Origin: Pseudo-nitzschia pungens
Taxonomy: Eukaryota; Bacillariophyta; Bacillariophyceae; Bacillariales; Bacillariaceae
Assembly: GCA_037355855.1 (NCBI GenBank)
Contig: CM074764.1
Span: 1,798,001 to 1,862,000 of the forward strand
Reading direction: 5' to 3'
Length of the DNA: 64,000 bases
The notes below the pieces were generated by a model. That model did no database searches. It saw only the letters and a program-made list of their open reading frames with translations, and was not told the origin of the DNA. The translations under genes and the position numbers were made by a program. Of this stretch, positions 1,139 to 21,900 are shown in pieces (position 1 is the stretch's first letter; every line of letters begins with the position of its first letter).

Positions 1139-3130
1139 ATGAACAGAAAAGCAAGGACAATTCGTGTCGGTGCAATTTGGGTCAGCATATCGACGTTGAC
1201 GCAGGAAAGTACAAGGGGGAAGAAGGGCACTAAGAACTGTCGACGCAGCTCTGATGGAATTGTTTGCACAAGGTGTAACACATTTTCTTGCAGAAAATGC
1301 TTGCAGTCTATTTTTAGACTCATTGAAAAAAGGACAGGCGGTAGCAACGTCGATCTGCCGGATGGGATCAAAGAAATGAAAAATGCTTTGATTGATAACC
1401 GGAGAGAGGTATCAGTTTGTCATGGCTGTATTTTTGTCGATCAAAGAGAGGAGGTACTGAGGTCCCATCGTCGTTTCATTCATGTGGAATGCAGAGAAGT
1501 GCAACTTAGGTTTGATGGTCACATCGTGTTACCAGAGTACAATGTGATAATCGACACCCCTCTTATCTCGGAGAATGTCATTGATTGCCATGGATTCGGG
1601 AAGGAGCCAAACCTTGCTGGAGTGAAACATTTTGTCGTGGGGTACAAGCTCGCCAGAGAAGCTGCAGCAACTGATGCAACGCCACGCAAACTTACCAGCA
1701 ATTCCGACACGGTGAAAACAAGTGTGGTGAATGTCATGTGTCCAGGGATTGCCAATCCAAATAAAAAACGGATGTACAGGGTGCAACTCATTGTAGTGCA
1801 TGGTTCCCAGTGTACCCAAGGCATCAACGAAGTTCCGGAATATACAGCGGCGTCACTCAACAACTCCATGGTGTTCTCAGTTCAGGATCGTGGGGACAAG
1901 TGTGATGCTACCATCATTGTTGGAAGTTTTTCTGAATCACCTAAATTGGGACAGAAACAAAACCTGCTCCTGGCAAGGTTCTATCATGGAAGTGATGCTC
2001 TTCAAATGAAGCAAAAGGAGGTTCGATCGTTGTTTCTGGAAATTCAGAAATTAACGAGAACTAACCACATAGAAAGGAGTCGTTCTGGGGGCAGCAGTGG
2101 AGTATACAGTGGACCAACTCGAGTCCTCTTCCAAATGCTTGAAAATCCGAGTGTTACACCTAGGAAGGGAAATGCAACCTTCGTTGTTCCAGACGGGCAT
2201 AAAATACGTGTGTTTTACATCAACAGAAGAGGACATCCAATTCATTGGGCATATTCCAACCCTCAGTATGGAGGACAGATCGGGCCGATCTCCAAGGATT
2301 TGTTTTCGCGATACAAATTCTTTCAGCCATTCACAGAGTCCAAGATTGTCAGTGCATTACTTCTGAGACAGCTTAGCAACATTGAAGTTGAAGGAGTGGA
2401 AGGGGTGCTGAATGTGGTGCCTCTTGCTGTTGCGCGAGAGTTGAGAAACCACAAGAAAGCCATAACCCATGCCGGTTCGAATGAAATTTGTGAAATTTTG
2501 TATCAGTTTTGTTCCCTTAATTCAACAACACTTGTGCAACACCCGGTCGGTCTTCACTATGACAAATTTGGTACAGACGAAGAAGGTACTGTTTTCAGTC
2601 TGGAGAACAAGATTGGTTTTGCCACCAAGAACCCTGAATTTCACAGAAAGTACGGAATGGGAAGGGGAGGTCGTGGTCCAGAAACATTTGTGTTCTGTTT
2701 GCTTGATTGGGGCAAACACAGAAGAGCAAGACGTGTGGCCGAAGTTAATTTGCAGGCAGCAGAAGTACAGCTCACGCAACGACAGCAAGAGTGGCAAGCA
2801 GCGTTTGACAATTGGGTGGCCGTTGCAGAGAATCCAGATGCCACTCAGGATGAGGAGCACGAGGCACATGCACGAGAGCTTGAAACTGAAGCTGCACGTG
2901 ACGAGGCCCAGGCAGCCAGAGATGCTGCCAATGTTGCTTATGACGAAGCAGATGCTGCCGTTGCAGAGGCTGATGCTGCAGCCAATAATCCGCCTGGGAA
3001 TGTCGATGACGATGCGGATGCTGGTGATGCTGGTTCTGATTCAGATTCAGATTCGGATGCGGAATTCTACGACTCCGATTTGGAACATTCGGAATCAGAA
3101 ACGGAGGAAGAGGAGGTTTCAGAGTTTTGA
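1139..3130 (+). CDS. Unrecognised 663-aa protein, Cys pairs and acidic C-tail
   Basis: I do not recognise this family. The ATG at 1139 opens a 663-aa frame. Residues ~40-55 hold CTRCNTFSCRKC, two closely spaced Cys pairs that could bind zinc, with a further CHGC pair near residue 95. The middle (~110-530) is a mixed globular region without a motif I can name. Residues ~535-605 are an Ala/Glu/Gln-rich probable coiled coil, and the last ~50 residues are very acidic (SDSDSDSDAEFYDSD). The first ~35 residues overlap the end of the upstream minisatellite, so the true start could be internal or on another exon. It converges with the minus-strand gene at 3223-4984, 92 bp away. Both lie in the locus later split by the retrotransposon at 5603-17523. 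Expression and function are unknown; a mobile-element origin is possible but only inferred. Confidence 0.6.
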   Translation: MNRKARTIRVGAIWVSISTLTQESTRGKKGTKNCRRSSDGIVCTRCNTFSCRKCLQSIFRLIEKRTGGSNVDLPDGIKEMKNALIDNRREVSVCHGCIFVDQREEVLRSHRRFIHVECREVQLRFDGHIVLPEYNVIIDTPLISENVIDCHGFGKEPNLAGVKHFVVGYKLAREAAATDATPRKLTSNSDTVKTSVVNVMCPGIANPNKKRMYRVQLIVVHGSQCTQGINEVPEYTAASLNNSMVFSVQDRGDKCDATIIVGSFSESPKLGQKQNLLLARFYHGSDALQMKQKEVRSLFLEIQKLTRTNHIERSRSGGSSGVYSGPTRVLFQMLENPSVTPRKGNATFVVPDGHKIRVFYINRRGHPIHWAYSNPQYGGQIGPISKDLFSRYKFFQPFTESKIVSALLLRQLSNIEVEGVEGVLNVVPLAVARELRNHKKAITHAGSNEICEILYQFCSLNSTTLVQHPVGLHYDKFGTDEEGTVFSLENKIGFATKNPEFHRKYGMGRGGRGPETFVFCLLDWGKHRRARRVAEVNLQAAEVQLTQRQQEWQAAFDNWVAVAENPDATQDEEHEAHARELETEAARDEAQAARDAANVAYDEADAAVAEADAAANNPPGNVDDDADAGDAGSDSDSDSDAEFYDSDLEHSESETEEEEVSEF

Positions 3131-3222
3131 AATGATACGAATATTTTTTATTAGTTAGTTACGTGCATAGTAGTGAGGAATGGTTGATTCAGCAATGCCG
3201 ATTTATTTCGTCCTCGTCGTGG

Positions 3223-4984
3223 TCAGGGAGGAGGAGATTTCTTGCCTGGAGGAGGAGATTTCTTGCCTGGAGGAGGAGGTTTCTTGCGGGGCGGATATTT
3301 CTTGCCGCAGGGGGAAGGTTTCTTGCGAGAATCGTCTTGTTCTCTGGCTTCCATAACAACTTGTATTGCCGATTCTGTTACGACTTTTAATTGGTCAAGA
3401 GATATGGTATCGATGTCGAGTCCCAGTGTCCGATTTTGCACTTCATCAAACCATAAACACAGTTCTTCATCGTTCATCCGCATGGCGTGGCACTGGTGGT
3501 CGTAGAAGAGAACAAACTGTTCGTCTGACCAATCCGAAAATAAATCTCTTTTTTCCTTTAGGATTTTTTTTTTTTTAATAGCAGCAGGGGAGAGTCGGAT
3601 ACGACCAAAATGCCGAAGCTGGTATTCTGAACAACTGTGGGTGTAGTAAAGTCCATTCCTTTCTTTGCAGGAGTTGTTAATGAACCATTTGCCGGCTTTG
3701 ATTAATTCCTTCCCAATCAATTCTCTTTTCGCGTCAAACCCTGGACCAATCAGAAATGTCATTAATGGACCACCCGTTCGCTTATACCCATTTGCGTTGC
3801 GTTTTGAATCACTTGGTACTGGGATGACTTCATCAAATGCCGCCGTGAAGTGAATGCAAGAGGGAAATGTCTCGTATTGTGACTCGTCTTCGAAGGTGCT
3901 GCATAACTGTGCTATTTTCGTGTGCCTCGCGAGAAGTTCAACCTTTCGAAGAACGGCGTCGTCCTTAAAGTTTGGGATGCTCTCGGCCCTTGTAGACTGT
4001 GTTCGCTTCAATCTCTTTTTCTTCCGGTCTTCGGGGTCATCGATATCTTTGCTTTCATCATCAGTTTGAGGCGCAAATTCACTATCGGCGTCGTCGTCGT
4101 CATTGTCAGAATGATTATTTTGCTTTTGTTCTTCTGCACCGGAGTCGACGGAATCGAAATGACTATTTTGCTTATGTTCTTCTTCACCGGAATCGACGGC
4201 ATTTTCTTCATTAACTTTTTTCGAATATAAATGGAAATAGGCATCGAGCAATTGAGAATTGGCAATCCCGGATCCCCAAGATAATTTGGGGTCTGAAGGA
4301 GAATCTTCTTGGACTGAAACTTCTTGTTCATCGGAAGTTACTTCTTCGTTGGCACCGTCTTCTGCGTTGGAACCGACTTCTTCAGTTGGAACCGTCTTCT
4401 TCGTTGGAACTGACTTCTTCGTTGGAACTGACTTCTTCGTTGGAACTGACTTCTTCGTTGGAACTGACTTCTTCGTTGGAACTGACTTCTTCGTTGGAAT
4501 CTCCTTTGTCTTCGTTGGAACCGTCTTCTGCGTTGTAACCTTCATCTTCGTTGGAACCTTCATCTTCGACGGCATATTGATCTTCTTCGTTGGGGTTGGG
4601 GTTGTTGCATTCCATGTTTCGAATCTTCGTCTTCGGAGGAGCATCGTCGGCTTCGGAAGAATCATCGGATTCGACGGAATCATCTTCTCCTGCTGCTACT
4701 TTCTGACGTTCATCCCAAAATTCATCAAGAATAGACAAGCGAAGGTTCCGTTCTTCGCGAGTGGGAGGAGGAGGAGAAGGAGATCTGCTACGCGGCGGTG
4801 AAGGAGATCTGCTACGCGGCGGTGAAGGAGATCTGCTACGCGGCGGTGAAGGAGATCTGCTACGCGGCGGTGAAGGAGATCTGCTACGCGGTGGTGAAGG
4901 GGATCTGTTACTCGGAGGTGAGTTTGTGCGTCGAGAGGGACCGGAGGACTTTCTTGCTGTTTGTTTCCTGTGACGTTTCACCAT
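3223..4984 (-). pseudogene. RS-repeat/acidic protein gene with one-base frameshift
   Basis: Two long overlapping minus-strand frames read as one gene broken by a single extra base. The ATG at 4984 sits in the favourable context CCCACCATGG. The N-terminal frame gives a basic start, then five to six copies of an 8-residue unit RSPSPPRS (24-bp DNA repeat, ~4783-4917), then an acidic region ending in (SNEEVS)n encoded by an 18-bp repeat (~4389-4495). At 4384 an extra base (A on the plus strand) sits between AAC and GAA codons. Skipping it continues the same acidic repeat in the second frame, for 586 aa in total. The C-terminal ~250 residues contain a globular domain (IHFTAAFDEVIP ... PLMTFLIGPGFDAKRELIG) that aligns with the 573-aa protein at 12076-13797. 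The tail is KKPPPPGKKSPPP. The shift could be a real mutation, repeat slippage or an assembly error. Function is unknown. Confidence 0.6.
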
Positions 4985-5059: not shown

Positions 5060-5602
5060 TTTAAGGTGTACGAGATTTGGTTTCTTTTATTTATTTTTTT
5101 TTTTTGATCGTGGAGTATTTGTGAACAGAAACCAAAAAATAATGATACCGTGGGTACCTTACTCGTAATTGGTGGGACTCGGACCGAAATGGTGAAACCG
5201 AATTGGTCGGAGTGTGGAACGTTTATAAACGTCGGCGTGTGGAACATTTACGTCGGAGTGTGGAACGTTTATAAAAACGTCAAAGTGTTGAAGAGTAAGA
5301 CGAGTTGAGCAGTGGAGAATAACAAGTTGAGAAATGGAGAGTGACAACTTGAACAATGGAGAGAGACGAGTTAGTACTGTAGAGTAGCGGAGCGTAAAGA
5401 GATCGCAAAATCCAGGTAGAGCACTGCTGGTAGAAATTGTACTGGAAAATATAATTTTTTGATTGGTTAATTCAGTGGAGTAACATAAAGTACGATGGAC
5501 GATGGCTTAAACGTTGCGTAGCGGTTTTAAAAAGGATCGGCCGTGACATTTCCGATCTGCCGTGACAATTCCACTTGTCCCCGTAAAAAAAAGGGAACGT
5601 GG
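5060..5602. other. Intergenic, repeat-bearing flank of the LTR element
   Basis: No gene is supported here. Around 5200-5290 the words GTCGGAGTGTGGAACGTTTA and close variants recur three times, and 5290-5395 holds imperfect copies of a GTGGAGAGTGACAAGTTGA-like unit. These resemble the array at 18370-18510 on the other side of the inserted retrotransposon, as expected if both were neighbours before the insertion. The last five bases, CGTGG at 5598-5602, are the left copy of the retrotransposon's target-site duplication. Confidence 0.6.
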
Positions 5603-6040
5603 TGTTAAAATGTAGCTGAACTTAGCTCAGGGAATAAGGAGCAAGCTTGGAGATATTGCTGGTTGTAATGGCAAGGGCATGCAGACCGGTTGAGGTGCCG
5701 GTCTGTTCTGTCGATAGTCTCGGATTCACCACTAGTACGACCAAAGGGGAAGACAGTTGGCCGGATCTATTCTAACTACCACTTGGCACAGTCAGTTAGA
5801 TCCTAGATTTGTAGTTCTACAGGGAGTTGCTCAGGGAGCAGGATGTAGGTATCAAGGTATTCAAATCAGAGTTAAACTAAAGAAGTGATGACAGCAATCT
5901 TGTTGGGGGATCGACGTTGCTGTCTTGTTGTGTTTGCTGTTTGTTTTTCGTGTACAAATTGTACATGGAAAACCCTGTAGAAAACTATTTTGCGCATAGT
6001 GCGCGTATGGAGTGGATCGTGTCACGGTTACAATTTAATA
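5603..6040 (-). repeat. 3' LTR of the family A element
   Basis: This 438-bp repeat matches 17089-17523 over its whole length. Plus-strand ends are TGTTAAAATG and CAATTTAATA. The outer edge abuts the CGTGG target copy. In minus orientation the inner edge is preceded by ATGGGGCG, a plausible short polypurine tract. Confidence 0.9.
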
Positions 6041-6453
6041 CGCCCCATCTATGATCAGGGAAGCAAGAGAATCTTTCTTCGTTGTCATGGACATGTTGGA
6101 GCTGTGACACAGACAGGAATAAATGAAAGCGAGCATGGGCAAAAGTGAGTATGGGCAATAGCGCATGGGTTGCGCCCCACGTTGAGTAAAGAAATGGGCA
6201 ATAGCGCAGGTGAGATGCGCCCCATGTGGGTGAGTGATGGCACAGAGCCTGAAGATGCGCCCTGTTGTTGGGCAATATCAGCTGGAAGATGCGCCCCATG
6301 TTTGGTGTTTGAAATAGGCAAGGATGTGTGGGATCTGTATGAGTTGAGGTTGTTGGGACTCTGCATATTGCCAATGGCATCTCTGAAGAGAACGCCCCAG
6401 ATGACGAAAGGGAATGAGGCAGAGGACAAGAAGGAGACGAAAATGGAAGTATG
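6041..6453 (-). other. 3' non-coding part of the family A element
   Basis: This lies between the gag stop and the 3' LTR. It contains four or five imperfect copies of a unit with GGGCAATAGCG and GATGCGCCCCATG, spaced about 40-50 bp apart between 6145 and 6310. Open frames through it are repeat-driven and I see no gene. Confidence 0.55.
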
Positions 6454-8228
6454 TTAACAGAGTGACCAGTTGTGAGGACTGGTGTGTGTTTGGAGAAGAT
6501 GAGTAACAGACTGGCCAGCGATAGGATCATCGAAGTGAGCAACAACAGATTGAGAGCCATCAGCCATGCGGGCAACAAGTTTGGTAGGGGCCTTGGGGTT
6601 GTCAGCAAGGAGCTGAGCGGGATGGCCAGGTGACATGGAAGAGGCAAGGGGAAGCTTGGATTTGGAAGGTGATTTCCTGATGGTGGAAGGAGTTGGGTGT
6701 GTATATAGAGAGCCCTTCTTGGCTAGTTGTTGGTATGAGCCGGTGGGTTTGGAACCGTGCTGCCGGGCAATCCATTGGGTAACCAAAGCATCGGAGGCGT
6801 CCGTATCATGATCAGGTGACAAGTCATCAGGAGGAGCACTGGAAAGGGGATCAGGATTAGTTTGTTCAGGGGAAGCATGGGTGGAATGGAAGTATGCTTG
6901 ACGTCCAACAGGTTGGCCAGAACCAGGCGTGGGACTGGGTTGAGGCTCAGGAAATTTGTTGGGGTTCAGGTTGAGAACAATCTTTTGGCGGTCAGCAAAT
7001 GGGAATTGAGTCCAGAGTTGCTTAGCAACAGGGCTCAAGGTAGACCATATGGCAGGGGGAAGGCGATGGGACAAGGCCAAAGGGTCAACAGAGCTATCAG
7101 ATGTGGAACTAGCACGGAACGCAGCGTAGGTGTGAACGTCATTGACAAAGTCATCGGTGAACGCAGAGGAGTCAAGATAAGGGAAGGCACTGTGAAAATT
7201 GGCCTGGAAGTTCATATCGGCTCTGGATTTGGGTAAGGTGAGAGCAGCGCGGGAATCCAGCCGCGTAGCTTCGGCAAGAAGTGTGGTCTTGAGTTGAAGA
7301 ATGTGTTGAACTTCAACAGAATCAGGGTCGTGTGGAGAGGGCATTGGAACCTTAGAGAATTGGTCACTGAGGTGAGAATCAGAAGCAACAGCATGCAGGA
7401 GAGTGGAACGGAGCATGTGATATTTCATAGGGAGAGCAGGAGCAGTCATCTTGCAGAGAGTATCGTAGTGCTCAAACCAGTTGGTCAAGAAACGAACAGT
7501 TGAGTCCTTCCAGCCAACAAGTGTGAGGCGTTGAAGGATCTGTGATTGGCCAGCCACATCAAATTCATGAGTGTGTGTGGATTCTCGAAGTTTGAGAAAC
7601 TCAAAGTAGGCAGCTCTGCCATCACATGTGCTGGTGTGACCCTGGACACAGGTGTAGGAAAGGTTGGAGCGAAAGACCCGAAGTAAGAGGACCCAAAAGA
7701 ATTTGCATTGTTTGTCAAATAATTTCTTGCCAAAGGTGGAGAGATTGGAAGAATCCCATTGAGGATCCAAGAAGGTGTCCACATCAATATCATATTCTGC
7801 GAGCTGTGCACGGAATCCAGTAGCCCAGGTTTCAAAGCGAGCGTCATTTTTATAAACAGTGAAAACGGTGACATCATGAGAACGTTTACTCCATTGTTCA
7901 AACTTGACTTGGTCTTCGCTTTTAGAGGGCTTGAGAGTGGAAGGGGAAACGGAACTGGGGGAAGGAACAGATGATCGAGGAGGACACAGAACAGTGCCAA
8001 CGTCAAGATCGTCAACAAAGACATCAAATGCGTCAGCCGTGTAAAGAGTGACATCACGAGAGGGTTGTTTCAATGCGTTGAGGTGGTCACGGAACTTGAC
8101 AAATTGGAGCAGTTGGATATAGATGAAAGGGGGAAGGTCAAAGTAGTTGTTGCGATCATCACGGTACTGGAGTCGGTTGATAATGGGTTCAGTTAATCGA
8201 ATGAATTTACGCCATGTGGTAATGCCAG
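6454..8228 (-). pseudogene. gag: gag, 3' portion (interrupted by the transposon)
   Basis: This is the larger, downstream part of a retrotransposon Gag: structural protein of the virus-like particle, expected in cytoplasmic particles. The frame reads on without a stop from the transposon junction at 8228 to the stop at 6454, starting with ITTWRKFIRL. The protein is Trp/Phe-rich in the first half, as in diatom Copia gags, and Pro/Ser-rich in the last third. I see no zinc knuckle and no protease motif before the stop. Joining it to 15870-16224 after removing 8226-15869 (transposon plus one CAG) gives 2127 nt, exactly 709 codons, with no frame break. The gene was therefore intact when hit. The apparent extra N-terminus upstream of 8228 is transposon TIR sequence. 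Confidence 0.8.
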
Positions 8229-8805
8229 GAACATTATGGAAAAAAAAAAAAACCTTAATTTCCATTCCCGCGCGCGCGAAATCGTTCGTAATGCGCACAT
8301 ATTCTATAGATAATAAAGGGGACGAAATTTGCCGCGCCCCCCCCTTTTGGATTTCCATGGTGGACACTTAGCGTGGCGGGCCCCATCATTGTGAGATCTT
8401 CGTATATATATATATGTATATAGAGTGAGTTTTATAATTGCCCCCATCTATTTTTGAAGAACGACACTTAGCGTGGCGGGCACCTTCATCCAACGGTTCC
8501 ATGTGCGACCATAATTGCTTTATTTTCAACGAATTTCGCCTTCAACGCATGCTCAACACTTGGAAGAAACGGACACGTTTTATTTTCATGGTTTTATTGT
8601 CCTCAACAAAACTGTCCTCAAAAATGTTGTCCTCAACCTTTTGTCCTCAACAAAACTGTCCTCAACCTTTTGTCCTCAACAAAACTGTCCTCAACCTTTT
8701 GTCCTCAACGAATGTCCTCAACGAGTTTTGTCCTCAACGAGTTTTGTCCTCAACCCGCCACGCTGCGGGTCGCTCGTAGCCCGCTACGGAGCGTAGCCCA
8801 CTACG
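8229..8805 (+). repeat. Left terminal inverted repeat of the transposon
   Basis: It matches the reverse complement of ~15309-15869. It starts GAACATTATGG, then a poly-A run, a CG alternation (CGCGCGCG), two copies of CACTTAGCGTGGCGGG (around 8365 and 8464), and a minisatellite of TGTCCTCAACAAAAC-like units (8598-8755). The two arms differ by small indels and by copy number of the minisatellite. Confidence 0.9.
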
Positions 8806-8945
8806 ATGATGTCCCACGCTTGGCTACGGGGATGCCCACGCCCCGCTGCGGCACCACCCTCTCATCACTCAGGGATACTTGAGAACAATACAAACAACAA
8901 CACACCTTGGACAATAGTGGGACAAGACAATAATTGAGAAGAATC

Positions 8946-9563
8946 ATGTCACAAGACACTGGGAACAACGCTGTGGAGCCTTGGAGTCGCGGACAAAAAT
9001 CCAGCAGAGCCAAAGCTTATCTTAAGTTGCAACTTGAGAGTGATGAGGACAATTGGATCAAGCAGATTATAGCAAAAGACCCTGGTATTTCATCTAAAAC
9101 AATCGACCAAATTCATGACACCCATGTTCTCTTCCAACCATACAAGAAGCAAAACTTTCGATCCAACTTCCGGAGCCTCAAGAAGGCGATTGACGAGAAT
9201 GCCGCCGCCGTTTCATTTGATCAAGCAGCGCTCACGAAGGAATTGGAAAAGTATCCGAAGGAAACTCTACTCAAGGCAGGGTATCCTCGATGGAATCATC
9301 CAGAGAACCAAGCAAAGAAACTATTGGAAAACGACTTGAAAGCTGGTGGATTGTACGAGAAAGCGAAACCACTGGAGCTTCGAAAGAAGAGACCTGAATA
9401 CGAAGCGTTTCCAGAGAAGATATTCAGGGACCGTGTTTTTCGAGAACGTCGTAAGCAAATTGAAAGGCCGTTCTGGGTTGACAAACGGAACAAAAAGATG
9501 AGAAAGAAGACAGTTGATCATGGTCTAGAGAGTCTTAATACAGAGGAGGCCTCTAAGTTTTAG
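8946..9563 (+). CDS. 205-aa two-repeat protein carried by the transposon
   Basis: The ATG at 8946 is the first in frame and lies just inside the left TIR, so the TIR may supply the promoter. The 205-aa basic protein appears to hold two diverged copies of one unit. The first (~20-80) ends FQPYKKQNFRSNFRSLKKAI; the second (~115-180) begins RWNHPENQAKKLLENDL and continues RPEYEAFPEKIFRDRVF. Each has the pattern of a helix with AKxLLxxD followed by a hydrophobic-FR-basic helix. I recall similar repeat proteins in diatom genomes but cannot name a function. It is the only plus-strand gene in the element and is transcribed away from the left end. DNA binding is a guess from its charge. Confidence 0.65.
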   Translation: MSQDTGNNAVEPWSRGQKSSRAKAYLKLQLESDEDNWIKQIIAKDPGISSKTIDQIHDTHVLFQPYKKQNFRSNFRSLKKAIDENAAAVSFDQAALTKELEKYPKETLLKAGYPRWNHPENQAKKLLENDLKAGGLYEKAKPLELRKKRPEYEAFPEKIFRDRVFRERRKQIERPFWVDKRNKKMRKKTVDHGLESLNTEEASKF

Positions 9564-9693
9564 TTTAGTCATTCAATTTATGTAAAAAATCTCGGAGTTC
9601 GTCAAGTACTGCACCTGCTTCGTGATACCTTGCAATAGGGTCAAGATCAGAGGAATTAATAGATTCATCTATTGAATCAGGTGAGCGCAGGAG

Positions 9694-11524
9694 TCATTCA
9701 GGCGGAGGATTGTTTTCCATCCATTCGGCATAGTACTCCTTGCCTTCTTTCGCTGCCTTTTGCTGCTCGCGATAGTATACAGCTTTATCTACCGGTGACG
9801 CTGCGTGACGACGCTGTGCCAAATTTTCAGCTTTCCGTTTTTGTCGAACCTGTTCCGTTTGGCTTACTGCTCGGTTTGAGGCCTCGTTGCGTATCTGTTC
9901 ATTGGTCCTTACTTTTGGATTGGTTCTCTCAGGTCTCTCTAAAAGTGCCTTTTTGTTCGTCAGTTTGCTGGTGGGAACAGGTGGTAACAGAGGGGTGTCC
10001 GGAACAGGTGGTAGCAATGGGGTGTCCGGAACAGGTGGTAGCAATGGGGTGTCCGGAACAGGTGGTAAGGGGAGTAGGGGCTGTTCTGGGCGACCACCGC
10101 CACCGCCACCGCCGCCTGGTGGACCTCTCGGCGGCGGATCTTTTGGAGGACCTTTTGGACGACCTCGAGTATATTTATCCGAAGCAGGAGGATCAGGAGC
10201 TAAATTGTGATATTGTTTGATGTAAAATGTTAGTAATGGATGATTACTTCTTGGTTATCATAAAAACACAGATTGGTGGTGGGAACAATCACTTGCCTAG
10301 ATCCATTCTGGCAACGCCAGTAGCCAAGAGCATAGAAAGCATGTCGTCTTTGTCTTTCTGCTTGTTTGTAACCTCTTTCACAGAAGTTGCAATGGCGCAT
10401 TCCCACTTGACTCCTGGGATGTACTGAAACTTTGGATGGTCTTCGCCCTGACCATCAAACATTGGCGCTGGGAGAGAACGGAGGACAGGTTTAGCCAGCT
10501 TCAACTGAAGCTCGGTAGGACTTCGAGTGATCTTGTCATTGAAGTGAGAGTTATCGCAAGTGATTTCATCTGGGAACTGGAAGTAGATAATGCGTTGCTG
10601 CTTGAGTTCACTACGCACGATTTCCACTGCTTGGATTGAATGGGCTGCATATTGTGGATCATCTTCCATAGTGCCGGAGTACAAATTATCAATCTGGTTG
10701 AAGAACAATTTCGGGACACGAGGCATCGTAATAAAGATGCCCTTCCCGTCAACCTCAAGCCTTGCCTTGTACTTCATGTCGAGGACATCACCAATATCAA
10801 CAACGCGAATCTCAATGGACAACATATCCACGCGTTCACCATTGGAGATAATGTTGGGGACAACAATTGGTTGGACAAAAAGATTGTTCCACGATCTATC
10901 AATATCAAGATCAAAGCAATGAATGTTTTCGTTCTCTTCAGCCCAATCTGCAGACCACATTTCCACGCTGTTGTTGAATCCTCCTTAGGCGAAACGATGT
11001 GGTGGGACAATGTGAGACAATGCGAGACCAGAAAATTGCTACCACCGCCACGCTGCGTTACGTAACAGTCAATGATTTTGGAACTTACTCGACATTTCTG
11101 GGTGCAGGTTTCTTGAAAGAATAGGTGAATGTACGATCTTTGTTTGTGGAATAAATGGTGGTGGACTCTCTAAGCGGGGCTTCTTGACTGTTTGTGGTGG
11201 ACTCTCCAAGCGGGGCTTCTTGACTGTTTGTGGTGGACTCTCCAAGCGGGGCTTCTTGACTCTTTGTGGTGGAGTTACGGGGAGACACTGTGTGTGGCGG
11301 GTAGGGTTAGTATGCGTGACGATGGGGGTTGTTTTCAATTCAGGGCTTCGCAACAAAAAGTTAGCTCTGTATTTTTGAGCCAATCTTCTTTCTCTTGATC
11401 CTTTTGGAAAAGTGTTGGAATGGTAATCGCAAAAGACTCTGAATGATTCAAATTTATCAGGGTTCTGACAAAAATCGTGCACTAACTGAACGGCGAAAGC
11501 GGAAAGCTCCGTTGCTTTCGGCAT
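9694..11524 (-). CDS. 542-aa three-exon transposon protein of unknown function
   Basis: Three frames join cleanly through two introns. Exon 1 is 11524-11089 (ATG at 11524) and ends at a GTAAGT donor. Intron 1 (105 bp) ends CGCCTAAG. Exon 2 is 10983-10297. Intron 2 (97 bp) begins with the non-canonical GC donor GCAAGT and ends CAATTTAG, with a branch-like CTAAC upstream. Exon 3 is 10199-9694. Coding length is 1629 nt, exactly 543 codons. The N-terminal part (~1-65) is helical; then come three VKKPRLESPPQT repeats; the centre (~150-370) is an unrecognised globular domain starting near MWSADWAEENE; then GRPKGPPKDPPP, a Gly run and four LLPPVPDTP repeats; the end is a basic helical region. The exon model is inferred from splice signals and phase and has not been tested with RNA. 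Confidence 0.6.
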
Positions 11525-12075
11525 CAACTGGAATTATGACAGGATTGGTTGAAAACATGTTGGTGTCATCTTCACGCAGTACCACTGCTTCTCGTCTTAT
11601 CAACCTTTCATCGGTGCTCTAGAGAGAAAGAAGAAGCAACTTGCAAGAGGCCACATCGCGTTCTTGGTTGATCGTGGTCTGATGTTGTAGTTAGTAGTTA
11701 AACCTTACCGTACAATACGTCGGACTGGTTCCCCTGATTTTTGGTAGTAACTTTTGTTTACTTCGTATTATGTACGTTTAATTAGAACTGTATTTCAAAA
11801 CTCTGAATTGTAAGAGTACGGTAAGAGTGAAGTTACATCAAAATAGAGCAATTGTTGCTTGTTCCGGGTCTGGCTTAATAACCAAGGCCGCCATGCTCCG
11901 GCAGCCAAGTAGCTTATATATTTTACCGGTACCGCCACGCTCCGACCCGCCTTTCAACGGCTTTTATTTCTTATTTTTACTAAGGCCTCCATGCTTGCGC
12001 ACCCAAGTCGCTTCTACATGTTACTAGTACTGCAACTCTCAAGTACGATACCCGCATTTTCCACCTCTTAATTAA
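11525..12075. other. Non-coding spacer inside the transposon
   Basis: No gene is supported. The segment ~11881-11965 is imperfectly duplicated at ~11982-12060; both copies contain AAGGCC, CCATGCT and a CCAAGTxGCTT word. The side next to 11524 is presumably the promoter region of the three-exon gene. Confidence 0.5.
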
Positions 12076-13797
12076 TTATTTTTTTTTCTTTGAAGGTGGA
12101 TGGGCCTTTCCAAACACTTTCTTTGCGTACTCTTCCGGATCTTTGGTGTGGTAACGCCCAGCGTCCGTGTCGTTCTCCATCTCAGTAGCAATCCTCTTCA
12201 ACTGGGAAGCAAAAGGTTTCTTATACTCCTGGAAATGTTTCCCAACGAGGAACATTACGGCAGGCTTTTCTCTTTTCTTCCGGTTGTTTTCAGAAAGAAA
12301 AAGGTTTGGAACAGCCTCATCGTAGGTACCCATGAAGTGGACAGAGTAAGGTTTTTCGTCACGATCTATCTTGTCTTCCCATGTCGTGCTGTGCTGCAAG
12401 TTTTTCATATTCTTTGTAGTGACATCAAAAATCCTACGGGAAGTTCTGTCCTTGACGCTGAAATCGTTCCTTGGGGGTTCATTTGTCAGCCGCTTTCCAT
12501 TGCTACTCTTCTTGTTCTTGTTCTTGTTCTTGTTCTGGGAGACTGGGGGGTTCTTGTTCTGGGAGACTGGGTACACTACGCCGAAGTTTGAAGCTTCAGA
12601 CACTGTATCGTCATCGTGGATGCTGCTGGGCGCCACGCAGAGTGACTTTGGGGTGTTGCCATCCTCACCATCAAAATCATCGACATTAGCAAATTCGAGT
12701 TGGTCGGTCGCCCCGCAGAATGCAGGTGAGGGGCCGCCATCTTTACCACCAACGTCATTCACATTAGCCAATGGTGGTTCCTTCCTATTACGGAGTGCGC
12801 TCAAAAAAGCTGCCATTGGGCTTCCGAATGGGGGAACGATGGGAACAGAGAGATCTCGAATCGGAACATCAGCAACTGGTGGGGGTGGGGGCATGGAGTG
12901 TTGTAGAGGAGCAGTCGGTGGTGGTAGTACTTGTTTTTCAGCAGGTCGAGCAGGTAGTGGTGGCGCTTGAGGATCAATTGGTGGAATCGGGGGATTTTCA
13001 GCACGAGGTGGAGATGGAGGTGGGGGATTTTCAGCAGGAGGTGGAGGTGGGGGTTTAGTCGGAGGATGTTCGGCAGGAGGTGGAGGTGGGGGATTTTCAG
13101 CAGGAGGTGGAGGTGGAGGTGGAGTCGGAGGATGTTCAGCAGGAGGTGGAGGTGGGGGATTTTCAGCAGGAGGTGGAGGTGGAGTCGGAGGATGTTCAGC
13201 AGGAGGTGGAGGTGGGGGATTTTCAGCAGGAGGTGGAGATGGAGGTGGAGTCGGAGGATGTTCAGCAGGAGGTGGAGGTGGGGAGTCTTTTGAAGGTTGA
13301 ACCGGTGGGGATTTGAGCAGGCGGTGGATTGGGGCTGAAGGCGGTGGTGCCTTTCGGTTGTTCTTGCTAGGCTTGCGTCTCGTTGACTGTGCATAGGTCA
13401 CTTTCTTTCGGACACGGAGCTGCAATGGTTGAAGAAGGGCATCCGTGCTTTTTGGATCATTAGGGTCGTAGATGGCTGCGATTCCAGTTCGCACAATTGA
13501 AGCTTTCTGATTTACGTTGTTTCGTTTTTCATCAGTAAGTTTGCGGGATGAGCTCTCATTCGATTCTTCCTCGGCAGCAGACTCTTTCGTGCCCTCATCA
13601 GCAGACTCTTCCGTGTCCTTCCTGTCCTCATCAGAAGACTCCGTCGGGTCCTCATCAGAAGAGGACTGTTCCTTTCCCTCATCAGAAGCAGAGGCTCCCT
13701 CAGCAGCAGACACTTTCATGGTGACTCCTTTATCACTTTCCTCGGAGGCAGAAGTGGTCTTGTGACCAGCAGAAAAAAGTGTTTTAAGAAAGAACAT
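12076..13797 (-). CDS. 573-aa acidic/proline-rich transposon protein
   Basis: The ATG at 13797 is the first in the frame; a second at about residue 27 is also possible. The N-terminal ~110 residues are Ser/Glu/Asp-rich. Residues ~160-330 are a proline tract of PPPPPAEHPPTPPP and PPPPPAENPP units made by a GGTGGAGGTGG minisatellite. The C-terminal ~130 residues form a globular domain with VHFMGTYDEAVP and PAVMFLVGKHF, ending in KKKK. The same domain occurs in the frameshifted gene at 3223-4984 (IHFTAAFDEVIP / PLMTFLIGPGF), which is also acidic and proline-rich, so the two are probably related. No catalytic motif is visible. A structural or DNA-associated role in transposition is conceivable but unsupported. 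Confidence 0.65.
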   Translation of the reverse strand: MFFLKTLFSAGHKTTSASEESDKGVTMKVSAAEGASASDEGKEQSSSDEDPTESSDEDRKDTEESADEGTKESAAEEESNESSSRKLTDEKRNNVNQKASIVRTGIAAIYDPNDPKSTDALLQPLQLRVRKKVTYAQSTRRKPSKNNRKAPPPSAPIHRLLKSPPVQPSKDSPPPPPAEHPPTPPPSPPPAENPPPPPPAEHPPTPPPPPAENPPPPPPAEHPPTPPPPPPPAENPPPPPPAEHPPTKPPPPPPAENPPPPSPPRAENPPIPPIDPQAPPLPARPAEKQVLPPPTAPLQHSMPPPPPVADVPIRDLSVPIVPPFGSPMAAFLSALRNRKEPPLANVNDVGGKDGGPSPAFCGATDQLEFANVDDFDGEDGNTPKSLCVAPSSIHDDDTVSEASNFGVVYPVSQNKNPPVSQNKNKNKNKKSSNGKRLTNEPPRNDFSVKDRTSRRIFDVTTKNMKNLQHSTTWEDKIDRDEKPYSVHFMGTYDEAVPNLFLSENNRKKREKPAVMFLVGKHFQEYKKPFASQLKRIATEMENDTDAGRYHTKDPEEYAKKVFGKAHPPSKKKK

Positions 13798-14143
13798 CTT
13801 CAAAATAATGAAAATAGTCTATTCAATACAGCGTACCGGTAGCTATGATGGACTACATACTAGTAAGTGCAAACAGCGTGGACTTTTACAGTACACCCTG
13901 CGTCGACATCTACGCCCAGCGTGGAGACCCCCCCCAATCGGCACGATTCGTTGCACTATAAACCCAGCGTGGAACCCCCTCGACATGTTTGTATCGCACA
14001 TCGGCACGATTCGTTGCACTCTAAGTACCTCGCAACGCAGAGTGGCGGCTGCCGACCATTTCAATGCGCTGGCAACTCCTCACTAAATGGGGATCACTAA
14101 TCTTCAAAATAGCTTTGATTAAAATGTTTAAAAGGTACAACTA
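13798..14143. other. Non-coding spacer with a short direct repeat
   Basis: It lies between the transposase stop and the 573-aa gene start. The words CCAGCGTGGA and CGGCACGATTCGTTGCACT each occur twice (13915-14020). No gene is seen; the right part may be the promoter of the 573-aa gene or the 3' region of the transposase gene. Confidence 0.45.
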
Positions 14144-15199
14144 CTAGAGCTCAAACAATCCATGACCACTTTCAATATCGTATTGTACCAAAGTACAAAC
14201 CGATTCCATCACTGCTTGATGAACCGAATGAGGATGACGGAATTCGGTTGATAATATAGCAAATGACTTGATACGCGAGTTGAATGTTTCGTGTCTTGAC
14301 TTGGCCCGAGCTTTCAATTCTTTCACTTCTGTAGAGTCACCTTCTCGAGTAACAGAAACTGTATTGTTGTCTTCTCCTCTGTATGCACTATCAGCGATAG
14401 CTCGTTTCCCAGCTGGAATCATTGACTTCAAATTTCTGCCAGGGTTGTCCTTTGTTCCGGCACCATATCTAAAAATACTTAAATCGTGTCGACTTGCAGG
14501 AAATGGACCATTTATCCAAACAAGCCGATCGGATCTCAGAGAGATTCCCAGCTCATATGCCAGAGCAGCTCCGTGTGACTTGTGGCTGTACCATTTGCTT
14601 CCTGGATCCCTGCGAGCTTCTTGAATCCTGCAGTGTACTCCATCTACGGAGACAATGAAGACATCATCTTTGATCTCCTCATCTGAAAACCACTTGATCT
14701 TCTTCTTTTTCAAACGTTGAAAAGCAGCAGTGTACTCCTTCACCTTCGGTCCGATTGTCTCTGGGCTGAAATTCCATGGACCTTCCATCTGGACATATCT
14801 CGGATACGCCTTTAACCAATAGAGTGTGAGAAAGAAATATTTTAGATCAAACTTCTTTGCAGAAATTTCTTGTATCAAGTCCTTCACAACTTTTGAGATA
14901 GCAAGGGAGGAGACTCCATAGCACCCACGAAAGCGCCTCTCATTCCTATCGGACTTAACTTTGCGTTGTCTCTCCTCTGTGAATCCACAAAAAAGAAGTC
15001 CCTTAAGCCGCAATTCATCGACTGAATACTGAAGCTCTTGCTGCTGCTGCCACCGCCGCTGCTGCTCATGATGCTTGATCCTTTCTTTTTGCTCCTGACT
15101 CTGCTCTCGTTGTCTAGCATTTCTTCTCCTGTTCCTCGATCTTGTAGGCTCTGCATCTTGAAGAGACAGAGCCGCAAAAGAAGCTTCGAAAGAGTCCAT
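14144..15199 (-). CDS. DDE transposase, PIF/Harbinger-IS5-like
   Basis: This 351-aa protein should cut and re-insert the 8.2-15.9 kb element by acting on its inverted repeats in the nucleus. The ATG at 15199 is the first methionine in frame. Residues ~20-70 are Arg/Gln-rich. The catalytic core shows D186 (VSVDGVHC), D270 (AIADSAYRG) and E304 (SRHETFNSRIK), spaced 83 and 33 residues, with the family-typical KWYSHKSHGAALAYELGI and PASRHDLSIFR between the two Asp residues. This layout is that of DDE superfamily endonucleases near HARBI1 and IS5. No Myb-like partner is recognised in the element; one of the other three proteins might serve that purpose. The frame is intact, with all three acidic residues present. 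Confidence 0.85.
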   Translation of the reverse strand: MDSFEASFAALSLQDAEPTRSRNRRRNARQREQSQEQKERIKHHEQQRRWQQQQELQYSVDELRLKGLLFCGFTEERQRKVKSDRNERRFRGCYGVSSLAISKVVKDLIQEISAKKFDLKYFFLTLYWLKAYPRYVQMEGPWNFSPETIGPKVKEYTAAFQRLKKKKIKWFSDEEIKDDVFIVSVDGVHCRIQEARRDPGSKWYSHKSHGAALAYELGISLRSDRLVWINGPFPASRHDLSIFRYGAGTKDNPGRNLKSMIPAGKRAIADSAYRGEDNNTVSVTREGDSTEVKELKARAKSRHETFNSRIKSFAILSTEFRHPHSVHQAVMESVCTLVQYDIESGHGLFEL

Positions 15200-15308
15200 G
15201 TCGGTTCGATGAGCTCTTCTCAAAGTAGAGGTAGTGGTGATTATTTTTGTCTTGCCTCTTCCCGCAGCGTGGCGTCCTCCCCGCAAAATCGCCACTGTCG
15301 TATTGCAC

Positions 15309-15869
15309 CGTAGCGGGCTACCCGTAGTGGGCTACGAGCGACCCGTAGCGTGGCGGGTTGAGGACAAAACTTGTTGAGGACATTCGTTGAGGACAAAAGG
15401 TTGAGGACAGTTTTGTTGAGGACAAAAGGTTGAGGACAGTTTTGTTGAGGACAAAAGGTTGAGGACAACATTTTTGAGGACAGTTTTGTTGAGGACAATA
15501 AAACCATGAAAATAAAACGTGTCCGTTTCTTCCAAGTGTTCAAGCTCATGCGTTGAAGGCGAAATTCGTTGAAAATAAAGCATTATGGTCGCACATGGAA
15601 CCGTTGGATGAAGGTGCCCGCCACGCTAAGTGTCCACGTTGTCTATCCAAAATAGATGGGGGCAATTATAAAACTCACTCTATATACATATATATATACG
15701 AAGATCTCACAATGATGGGGCCCGCCACGCTAAGTGTCCACCATGGAAATCCAAAAGGGGGGGCGCGGCAAATTTTGTCCCCTTTATGATCTACAGAATG
15801 TGCGCATTACGAACGATTTGGCGCGCGCGGAAATGGAAATTAACGTTTTTTTTTTTTTCCATAATGTTC
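15309..15869 (-). repeat. Right terminal inverted repeat of the transposon
   Basis: It is the inverted partner of 8229-8805, ending CCATAATGTTC at 15869 directly before the right CAG target copy (15870-15872). The TGTCCTCAAC minisatellite and the paired CACTTAGCGTGGCGGG words are present in reverse orientation. Confidence 0.9.
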
Positions 15870-16224
15870 CAGAGGCAATGAGAGCATTACAGAGTAAGGA
15901 TTGCGGATCACTGACGTCAAAAAGTGCGTGAAGGGCACGGGCACAATAATGATCAAAATGTGTGGTAAGGTTGCTGGCAACATCCCTTGGTAGTGGGGTG
16001 GCGGCGGCAGTAGCAGGTGTGGTTTCAGTTGTGGTGGTGGGGGTGGAGGCATCAGCGATTGCCGTGTCTGCAGGAGTCTCATCGGACATGTTGTCGGATT
16101 CTTCAGAGGCTATTGGGCAATCAAAAAGAGAATGAGATGCAGTGATAATAGACCGAAGGTCTCTGTACTGATCTTGGTAGGATGCGGGGAAGGGAGCGCT
16201 TTGTCGGGTGCGTCGACGAGGCAT
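15870..16224 (-). pseudogene. gag: gag, 5' portion (interrupted by the transposon)
   Basis: This is the N-terminal ~118 residues of the family A Gag, with an ATG at 16224. It begins MPRRRTRQSAPFPASYQDQY, then a Thr/Ala/Pro-rich stretch, and ends ...LFDVSDPQSLLCNALIASG at the junction, where transposon sequence follows. The matching downstream part is 6454-8228; NALIASG continues directly into ITTWRKF once the insertion is removed. Without splicing, translation would run ~30 codons into the right TIR and stop. Confidence 0.8.
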
Positions 16225-17088: not shown

Positions 17089-17523
17089 TGTTAAAATGTA
17101 GCTGAACTTAGCTCAGGGAATAAGGAGCAAGCTTGGAGATATTGCTGGTTGTAATGGCAAGGGCATGCAAACCGGTTGAGGTCCCGGTCTGTTCTGTCGA
17201 TAGTCTCGGATTCACCACTACGACCAAAGGGGAAGACAGTTGGCCGGATCTATTCTAACTACCACTTGGCACAGTCAGTTAGATCCTAGATTTGTAGTTC
17301 TACAAGGAGTTGCTCAGGGAGCAGGATGTAGGTATCAAGGTATTCAAATCAGAGTTAAACTAAAGAAGTGATGACAGCAATCTTGTTGGGGGATCGACGT
17401 TGCTGTCTTGTTGTGTTTGCTGTTTGTTTTTCGTGTACAAATTGTACATGGAAAACCCTGTAGAAAACTATTTTGCGCATAGTGCGCGTATGGAGTGGAT
17501 CATGTCACGGTTACAATTTAATA
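17089..17523 (-). repeat. 5' LTR of the family A element
   Basis: This 435-bp copy matches 5603-6040. Differences seen by eye include G/A at the ATGCAR-ACCGG word, a G/C in GGTSCCGG, a 3-bp deletion in ACCACTA(GTA)CGACC and G/A in GGATCRTGTC. The outer edge abuts the CGTGG target copy at 17524-17528. Confidence 0.9.
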
Positions 17524-17754
17524 CGTGGATGCACTTAAAGTTATGTGGAATTCGGCGTGGAAACATTTCTCGTTTAGTGAAGTTGATTAAATGTTGTGAT
17601 CGTGAAACCAAAGAATTTACGCTGAGAAACTTGTAGAGTGAATTGATGCTGAGAAACATGTCAAGTATTTCGAATGGTGTGTTCAATTGTTATGAATTCA
17701 TTAATTCCAGTTTGAAAAGTTTCAACGAATAATTTTTTAACACAAACAGACATT

Positions 17755-18971: not shown

Positions 18972-21900
18972 TCAAAAAGGTCTAAAAATGACCATTTTAC
19001 CTCGAAAAACAGTTAACAGACGTTGTTCACGAATTTTGTCACATACTTTGGGGTCAGCATTAGCTATAAGGAAGTCATCCACTTGTCGGAGGATAAGGGT
19101 AAGGCCGGAGTCGTCATGTTTGTAGTATAGGCAAGGTTCGTGGGTGGTGTGTTTAAAGCCTAGTTCCTCGGTAATCATCTTGGATATGTATTTGTCCCAT
19201 AGGCGGGGTGATTCAGGGTGTCCCTGAAGCGCTTTCTGGACTGGAATAACATGTCCTATGGGAATGGGTTTGCGTCCTAGATGTTCAGTCCACCACTGAT
19301 GGAATGGAGGGTCTACTCTCATGTAGAAGGGGCTTTTGGGGGCTGGTGCTTCAGCGAAGGCGTTGCCGACGTCGTAGCCAACACAGATAAGATTGAGAGC
19401 TGCGGATAGAGCCCATGTGAGGCGATGGACTGGTTGTTCAACGCATGCTGCATAGGTTTCAGCCAAGGTGACAGCTTTGCCATAGCGTTTGCCGCCATTG
19501 CAGGTGCCACGGGATTTTGGAATGGTCTGTCCTGTGAGTGGGTCTTCTTTATAGAGATAGGTCCACACCCAGGGGAGGACATTCATGTGAGGTTCAGGTG
19601 GTATAGGGTCACCAAACATGCCGACCTTGTGATACCGGTCGAGTTGTTTCCATTCAGAGCGTAGGAAGCCGTCCCATTTGGGTGTACCTTGTAGCTTGCG
19701 GCGTGTGAGTTGGGAGATATGTATCGATTTCTTAACAGCTTCCGGGGAGTCAATGGGGAGGGGCCATTGGTGTTTCTTGTCCCAAAGATCTTGTCCTTGA
19801 TTGATGTTATGGAGATGGTGGGCAATGACGTTGAGTTGATCGGCTTGGAGGGTTGGGACGCCTTCAACACTTAGGGCGAAGCCGGTTAGCGAGCCAAATG
19901 TGATTTTTATATTGACTTTATGGCTCTCGCGTGCCGATTTAACTGCTTGGGCGATGTCATGTGGGGTGCGGATGCGTCGGCCATCCACTGTGGTAACGAT
20001 GGTACCGCGTAGGCGACGTTTCCAGTTGCGGATTCTGGAGTGAGCGATGGTACCAACTTGGATGGATGTAAGTTCCACTGAGTCCGTTAGGTCCGGGTGG
20101 GGGGAGACTACAAGTCCCATTGTAGGATGGAAGTTGGTAGTCCGTATCAGGGGAAGGGTATGGCTTGTTTCATGGAGATACATGTTGGAAGAGACATCAA
20201 GGGATTCGAGTTCCGGGAGGAGAGTTTTAAGGTCAGGACGTTGGAATTTGGTCTTGTTGATTGTGGCAGTGACTTTTGCAGCAGCGGCGGCGGTGAATGG
20301 GGTGGGAGAGTTATTGATGATTTCTGCCACGACAGCGTCGGGGTTAATCTGTCGGGGGTCCTTGAATTCCATTGTTATAGGTTCCGGTCCAGTGTCGTTG
20401 GTGGTGTGTTGGATGTGGTCATCCTCTGTGAATACGCCCAGAAGGTGTGACGCAGCTGGAGACCGATTGGAGGGGTCGTCACCGTATTGGAGTTCATCTT
20501 TCGAGTCATGGCGTGCTACTTTGTCAGTGCCGGAATGGATGTCAAAGTATTTGATGTTGTCAGTTGTACGTCCATATCCGAGGAAGATTCCGTCGTATGC
20601 CCACGGGTTCGTGGTTGTGGGACGGGTGCCGGGCTTTTTAGCGGTGATCTTGGAGCCAAAGGTAATGAGGTTATCGACGAGTGGTATGCGACCAGTATAC
20701 GCCTGATAGGGGGTCATAGAGATGGCCGAATGGTATGTTCTGTTGTAGAGCCAGGTCGTATGGAGGAGGGCATCCGCCCAATACTCTGTGCCAAGTCCTG
20801 CTGCATACAGTAGACAACGGATTCGTTCTTTAATAGTACGGTGTGGGCGTTCAGCCATACCATTCTGCGATGAGGCGTCAGCCGCTGTTGAAAGGACGTC
20901 GTATCCATGTGTTTTGGCTACTTCACAGAATTTGGTGGAGTTGGATAGTTCACCTCCGCCGTCTGTCATGATCGTACAGTCGAGGTGATGGGGATCGAGC
21001 TGTAGGAGTTGTGAGTCTTCGACAGGGTGAATGGTGTACTTGTGGTCGGATGCTGTTTCCTTAAATAGTCAGGATCGGGCAAGATAACCATTGGACGTCG
21101 TGGTGATAATGGCTTTTGTTGGATCAGTGGTTTTGATGCCATGTTTCTGAAGAAATTTGTCCACAATGGTAATTGGGGGCTCTTTGGATTTGACAGGGAA
21201 TGTCCACAGGGCTCGTGTAGCAGCGTCAACGATGGTGAGGAAACCGATATACCCCTGCCGACTTTTCTTGAGGGTAGGAGCAGCTTTGGCATGGTGTTTG
21301 ATCATATCGTTGAGGTTAGAGGGTCCTGTAACAAAAGAGAGATCCATGTGGTAAGTCATAGTGGGTACAAAACGTTCCTTTGGGTCTTTACGGCGTCCAT
21401 GGTATTTTCACAGAATGGGCATTTAAAGAAGGGAGCTGAGGATGGCATGGCCGGCATGCCTTCTACTACCTTCTGGGTTTTTGACAGTGTGGAGGGGGAG
21501 ACGTGACCATAGCGTTGGTGCCACAGTTCAAGGTTTTTGAGTGCTTGTGAAAGACGTCCTGTCCATGTTTTGGTTGCGCATGGTGGAGGTTTGTTGTTTT
21601 TATCATGGTCAAGTTGTAGGATTTGCTTTCGAATAGTGTTCACTTGTTTCGATATGGATTGATTTTCAATGGATCTTCGAAGTAGGATTTTATTGGGTGT
21701 GTACCATTCGCCGTTAGCTGTGCATATGGTTTGTAGGGATTCAATAATCTTCCGTTGGGTGTCAAGAAATTTGATGGCTCCCGCGTTGTCCAGACAGCCT
21801 TCTTGTTGGAAGGTATGATATTTATTTCTTCGTTGATAGTTATCTAGAGATAGGACTGTGCCGGTGGAGCCGGGCGTGAAGAGGGTGGGCCAGCGCATGA

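Follow-up and report, generated by a model that had tools for sequence, protein, structure and literature searches.

A probable multi-gene variant of PIF/Harbinger-like transposons in the diatom Pseudo-nitzschia pungens

What kind of mobile element interrupts a gag-like open reading frame (ORF) in the diatom Pseudo-nitzschia pungens, and do the additional genes it carries belong to its transposition machinery? The stretch in question (hereafter the window) comprises 64,000 nucleotides of contig CM074764.1 (positions 1,798,001 to 1,862,000, GenBank assembly GCA_037355855.1), in which positions 8229-15869 are a 7,641-bp DNA transposon, designated copy A1 of family A. A preliminary description of the window had proposed an undescribed type of element with a DDE transposase and three cargo genes. 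We place it differently: A1 is probably a multi-gene variant, with four genes, of the PIF/Harbinger-like (PHIS) transposons. We are similarly confident that A1 moves by cut-and-paste, is apparently autonomous and inserted recently, and consider it likely that its lineage mostly duplicates CWG (CAG or CTG) at the target and codes for a set of proteins, which numbers four in family A. The genome searched here comprises 66.9 Mb in 28 contigs, labelled C1, C2 and so on below.

The element begins with GAACATTATGG at 8229 and ends with CCATAATGTTC at 15869, and its borders are accompanied by the following features.

8226..8228, unstranded: target-site duplication CAG, left (flank reading and empty sites)
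8229..8808, plus strand: left terminal inverted repeat (TIR) with a subterminal array of TGTCCTCAA type (arm alignment)
15306..15869, minus strand: right TIR with a subterminal array as on the left (arm alignment, repeat counts)
15870..15872, unstranded: target-site duplication CAG, right (flank reading and empty sites)

The TIR arms are 91.7% identical over 590 alignment columns (8228-8808 versus 15306-15870), far above chance. Within A1 the 8-mer GTCCTCAA is confined to the terminal 650 bp on each side, with 11 copies at one end and 10 at the other. We searched the genome separately with the 250 bp to the left and the 250 bp to the right of A1, each list of matches being a lower bound. Among 30 scored left-flank matches, 24 abut a match to the right flank, the two overlapping by exactly 3 bp; the others are the window itself, two sites with an 8-bp gap, and three lacking an adjoining right-flank match among those listed. 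These 24 paralogous empty sites fix the borders of A1 and its 3-bp duplication, and they return the borders and the CAG duplication first proposed.

The transposase is the gene on which the classification turns.

14144..15199, minus strand: transposase, 351 amino acids (aa), DDE_Tnp_4 (open frame, Pfam, alignment)

Its match to Pfam DDE_Tnp_4 (E = 6.2e-10, 39.4 bits) passes the cut-off of 24.8 bits, so we assign A1 to a lineage of the PHIS transposons, and the claim of an undescribed element type gives way. The catalytic triad reads D186, D270 and E304 in A1; the D-D-E pattern is kept in six aligned transposases, and the E304 position is K in copies A2 and A3. A 3-bp target-site duplication together with TIRs, a feature of the PHIS superfamily, is present in A1. 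Strict PIF/Harbinger elements duplicate TWA; here, of the eight elements read at both ends, seven show CAG or CTG and the eighth is rearranged. A sequence search of the PDB with the transposase found nothing. Scans of IMG/VR gave 14 pattern matches for the transposase and four for o2 (described next), none confirmed as relatives; a viral origin, considered only through these two scans, received no support.

Between the TIRs lie three further unbroken genes, one of them spliced, as had been predicted.

8946..9563, plus strand: o2, 205 aa, open; a tandem pair of similar W/L/RxEY/F modules, modelled as all-helical (ORF, relatives, internal repeat, model)
9694..10199, minus strand: o3 exon 3, proline-rich with a basic tail (splice model; junction present in protein P0008)
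10297..10983, minus strand: o3 exon 2, conserved domain (relatives, splice model, P0008)
11089..11524, minus strand: o3 exon 1, predicted, with a 105-bp GT-AG intron to exon 2 (in-frame splice model, outside the coverage of P0008)
12076..13797, minus strand: o4, 573 aa, open, acidic and proline-rich, with a conserved C-terminal domain at about residues 436-573 (ORF, relatives)

The three-exon model of o3 encodes 542 aa. Its protein search returned one relative, the P. pungens transcriptome protein P0008, which is 92% identical over exon 2 and continues into exon 3 precisely where the GC-AG junction was predicted, in support of the second splice. Exon 3 of o3 has an AT-hook-like GRPKGP motif that is absent from P0008. 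The protein search with o2 returned six proteins, none of them named, and a profile search with o2 found nothing; for the C-terminal part of o4, none of 82 candidates reached E <= 0.001. The Pfam scan of family A covered o2, o3 exons 1 and 2, and o4, and gave no match for any of them. A Myb/SANT match in particular was absent from these sequences and, with E as high as 5 allowed, from 11 members of o2, a result that leaves room for a strongly diverged domain and involved no genome-wide Myb/SANT search. YqaJ was likewise absent from the proteins scanned with Pfam. The o2 structure model, built with seven sequences, has a mean predicted local distance difference test score (pLDDT) of 75.9 and a predicted template modelling score (pTM) of 0.47; Foldseek returned no match for it at E <= 0.001, and the FF-domain rows of the structure comparison are a lead only. 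The o3 model (two sequences, mean pLDDT 30.7) was set aside.

Family A has further members that bear on the integrity of the unit. A2 (C5:5555569-5565491) is a full copy with an insert of about 2.1 kb, and A3 (C5:5743449-5751204) is a full copy in which o4 is split into two frames. These two, about 178 kb apart, share their flanks in opposite orientation and are probably one insertion that was later duplicated; the arrangement points to segmental duplication with inversion or to a peculiarity of the assembly. A4 (C7:2436101-2451679) is rearranged and decayed, with flanks GCG and CTG and no transposase match, and keeps o2. A5 is an end remnant, and A6 is a 465-bp derivative consisting of the ends only between CTG flanks, which fits mobilisation in trans. 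No copy in which the TIR pair encloses the transposase alone was found in the genome, in keeping with the preliminary description. The insert in A2 and the interruption of A4 are what could be expected if unrelated mobile elements were nested here, with the outer TIRs hiding separate units. Against such a composite, A1, A2 and A3 have an identical gene order, some of the same helpers recur in other orders in the diverged families B and C, and the internal inverted pairs (among the 25 longest of 57 in the region) are only 31-34 bp long at 71-74% identity. We regard a composite origin as highly improbable.

We next consider these diverged families, whose transposases also exceed the DDE_Tnp_4 cut-off (B, 41.1; C, 34.0; D, 31.2 bits). 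In protein searches of the genome, transposase identity to A was 53-62% in B, 33-37% in most C types and 39%, over a partial sequence, in D. Where both ends could be read, element length ranged from 7.6 to 13.3 kb across families. The longest reading is a B copy at C2:6320145-6333406 (13,262 bp, CAG/CAG); the C copy on C9 measures 8,482 bp with CTG on both sides, a second C copy on C7 also has CTG/CTG, and family D has two right ends with CAG and a length of at least 11.7 kb. Matching CWG flanks occur in seven of the eight elements that could be read to both ends (A1, A2, A3, A4, A6, B and two C copies), with CAG in A1, A3 and B, CTG in A2, A6 and both C copies, and A4 as the exception. Since A2 and A3 share one duplicated site, the seven count as six independent insertions. 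In four further B copies the left flank is CGG, CAG, CCG and CAG, respectively; because two of these are CGG and CCG, family B may accept CNG.

The ends themselves differ among families. TIRs span 590 bp and start with GAA in A, span about 23 bp and start with GAA in B, span 14 bp and start with GGC in C, and start with GAG in D. The subterminal arrays seen are of TGTCCTCAA type (A) and of AACCCACG, and matching arrays at both ends were seen in families A and C only. The right end of B has an array of ACAGACGA (23 times), of which the left end has five copies, oppositely oriented; no 8-mer occurs at least three times in both 950-bp ends of B.

Family B has an additional gene. In five of six B-type places we found an Ulp1/SENP (C48) protease gene with an open frame of 1,157-1,242 residues, 5.6-5.7 kb from the transposase (PF02902, 53.2 bits against a cut-off of 20.7); at the sixth, the decayed place C1:3596882, no such gene appeared among the matches listed. 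In the C2 copy of B, the protease His, Asp and Cys positions align with those of yeast Ulp1 (1euv), which we take to be its catalytic residues. Ulp1-type frames also occur elsewhere. Three loci (C5:5024397-5027830, C6:3320182-3323615 and C8:2938677-2942113) pair an o4-like ORF (open frame of 623-626 aa) with an Ulp1-domain ORF (open frame of 1078 aa) 2.3 kb away, with no DDE_Tnp_4 within 12 kb, and perhaps represent another multi-gene element. Repeated open frames of 2,770-2,806 aa with a weak Ulp1 match (C3:1853751, C11:1192902, C2:5058244, C3:5533643, C6:3231038, C10:830058 and C12:569073, with a shorter one at C11:479805) are possibly another mobile element family. At C3:3936557-3942203, outside families A-D, a DDE_Tnp_4 match lies 4.7 kb from the strongest Ulp1 match of the genome. 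A family D locus (L069) has a 176-aa ORF at 5135-5665, membrane-like by eye, and a 500-aa ORF at 2288-3790, neither with a Pfam match; the proteins D_500, B_223 and B_263 had no match to the o3 or o4 profiles.

Whether the helper genes travel with the transposase was assessed by proximity: a place counted as near when a DDE_Tnp_4-type transposase (88 sites) lay at most 18 kb away, a distance that takes in 4.6% of the genome. By this measure 18 of 22 o2 places are close to a transposase, and the four farther off include the decayed A4 and one place 7.5 kb from an o3. The o2 gene is present in A, B and three C-type families. A C-type o3 query gave 17 matches at 14 distinct places (four in A, five in B, five C-type), of which, compared by eye, 12 are near a transposase, one is near o2 only and one lies in A4, where o2 but no transposase match is retained; o3 was also recognised by blastp in C on C9 and by profile (93.6%) in B. 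Of 75 o4-like places only 19 are near a transposase, and this number includes at least two positions external to the elements (window 3580-4065 and C6:2989831). In family D, o4 stands 343 bp from the transposase in all six places. The full set of four was seen in A and in the C9 copy of C; B showed transposase, o2 and o3, and D showed transposase and o4.

These distributions bear on a simpler explanation, in which an ordinary PIF/Harbinger transposon has picked up three passengers, either host genes or pieces of them, and the transposase alone matters. Gene capture is known in other superfamilies, including plant MULE and CACTA elements with ULP1 domains (PMC2528002; here and below, published systems are compared through the portions of the cited articles available to us), o2-o4 have no assigned function, and the scatter of o4-like domains is what capture would produce. 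Yet o2 recurs in C-type families whose transposases share only 33-36% identity with that of A, o3 occurs in A, B and C types, all 14 o3 places as well as the 18 o2 places are tied to these elements, synonymous sites are saturated between families, and o2 and o3 have no Pfam family. The transposase and o2 identities rank similarly between five families (Spearman 0.76, p 0.011, over 10 non-independent pairs), and the ratio of nonsynonymous to synonymous substitution rates (dN/dS) was uninformative between copies. Capture of three passengers thus appears quite unlikely to us. Shared by diverged families, o2 and o3 appear to behave like transposition partners, a role at odds with the earlier label of cargo; o4, of which so few places are near a transposase, is a domain used much more widely rather than a private partner.

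For the reading of A1 as a multi-gene PHIS transposon, the following mechanism can be proposed. The DDE transposase would cut at the GAAC.../...GTTC ends, which it would then join to the two sides of a 3-bp CWG target; the outcome of such a reaction is seen in the sequence, whereas its catalysis is inferred. The paired helical modules and net basic charge of o2 make it a candidate, alone or together with o3 (or o3 alone), to replace the Myb/SANT partner by binding the subterminal TGTCCTCAA arrays, and o2 and/or o3 may bring the transposase to the element ends and into the nucleus. With its acidic proline-rich arm, short basic C-terminus and a C-terminal domain used elsewhere in the genome, o4 is more tentatively a chromatin or expression accessory. 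We give these helper roles a roughly even chance. The wider proposal, about which we are evenly divided, is that Pseudo-nitzschia-type diatoms host a multi-gene PHIS lineage of up to 13 kb, in which the Myb/SANT partner has been replaced by the conserved pair o2 and o3 and to which further accessories, such as a SUMO-type protease, have been added.

The site of insertion also constrains the age of A1, which sits within a long terminal repeat (LTR) element.

5603..6042, unstranded: LTR of the host element (direct repeat, 98.4% identical to 17089-17525)
6454..8228, minus strand: gag-like ORF, 3' part, includes CAG 8226-8228 (ORF list, coordinate arithmetic)
15870..16224, minus strand: gag-like ORF, 5' part, includes CAG 15870-15872 (ORF list, empty sites)
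17089..17525, unstranded: LTR of the host element (direct repeat, 98.4% identical to 5603-6042)

By coordinate arithmetic the phases of the two gag-like parts agree, and the restored frame has 355 + 1,772 = 2,127 nucleotides, or 709 codons with the stop, encoding 708 residues. Insertion into a single frame between the LTRs, as described at the outset, is thus borne out; its naming as gag found no confirmation in Pfam, with no match in the scanned part (590 aa). No reverse transcriptase was found between the LTRs, where the Pfam scan covered only the transposon's proteins and this 590-aa part. The LTR divergence of about 1.6% would set an upper limit on the age of the DNA transposon insertion. 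Just outside the LTR element are an o4-like 486-aa ORF at 3223-4683 (minus strand) and a 663-aa ORF at 1139-3130 (plus strand) that has no Pfam match. A separate ORF at 18972-20969 (minus strand) encodes a copia-type reverse transcriptase (RVT_2), with a weak PDZ-like match below its cut-off, and positions 53587-55523 are occupied by a long tandem array that matches itself in many registers.

Among DDE systems, PIF/Harbinger transposition serves as a two-protein model, in which a transposase acts with a Myb-like partner. If our reading is correct, that partner is replaceable, since this lineage would have a different and larger conserved helper set; it would also be a source of new candidates for DNA targeting and account for some unnamed diatom gene families. 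Annotations would be corrected as well, since o2-o4 and the Ulp1 gene carried by B might be mistaken for host genes.

Virtually all characterised coding PIF/Harbinger elements have two genes whose proteins are both required (Hancock et al. 2010, PMC2836001). The elements described here resemble them in their DDE_Tnp_4 transposase, 3-bp palindromic duplication, TIRs, short non-autonomous derivatives and a helper gene beside the transposase, and differ in duplicating CWG rather than TWA, in having three Pfam-less helpers instead of one Myb/SANT protein, in the long TIRs and subterminal arrays of A, and in their length of 7.6-13.3 kb. Harbinger-like elements have been reported in the diatom Thalassiosira pseudonana (PMC2806351), and the autonomous Harbinger elements of Ectocarpus all carry two genes, arranged tail to tail, and duplicate ANT or TNA (PMC12477816). 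The giant elements of Ectocarpus are KDZ, EnSpm and Sola-1, generally >10 kb (PMC12477816); ours are like them in large size, ochrophyte host and accessory genes mostly of unknown function, and differ in transposase superfamily. The Ulp1/SENP gene of family B parallels the ULP1-bearing MULE and CACTA elements (PMC2528002), which belong to other superfamilies, whereas B is PHIS-type and has the gene at five of its six places. ISL2EU, of the same superfamily, likewise has a second gene that is not Myb/SANT, but that gene has a YqaJ domain (PMC4482050). Among the matches listed from the open-licence literature, no title or abstract opening describes a multi-gene CWG Harbinger-like lineage (Repbase was not searched).

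The closest comparison is with NuwaI, for which Han et al. (2015, PMC4482050) report CWG duplications, as opposed to the TWA of PIF/Harbinger. Most of its autonomous members encode a DDE and a Myb/SANT protein in two ORFs; the TIRs measure 12-61 bp and usually start with GGG, the average length is about 4,462 bp, and the group was found only in animals. The shared CWG duplication and a DDE transposase of the same superfamily could mean that A1 is a NuwaI element living in a diatom. We consider this doubtful: A and C have four genes, no Myb/SANT match was found in the proteins scanned, the lengths exceed the NuwaI average, and the TIRs start with GAA, GAA, GGC and GAG in A to D, those of A lying outside the NuwaI length range and those of B and C within it, a comparison made from published descriptions. 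Because CWG duplication was already described for NuwaI, it does not set these elements apart, as the preliminary description had supposed of a duplication other than TWA; the target site is not new, and the gene set is.

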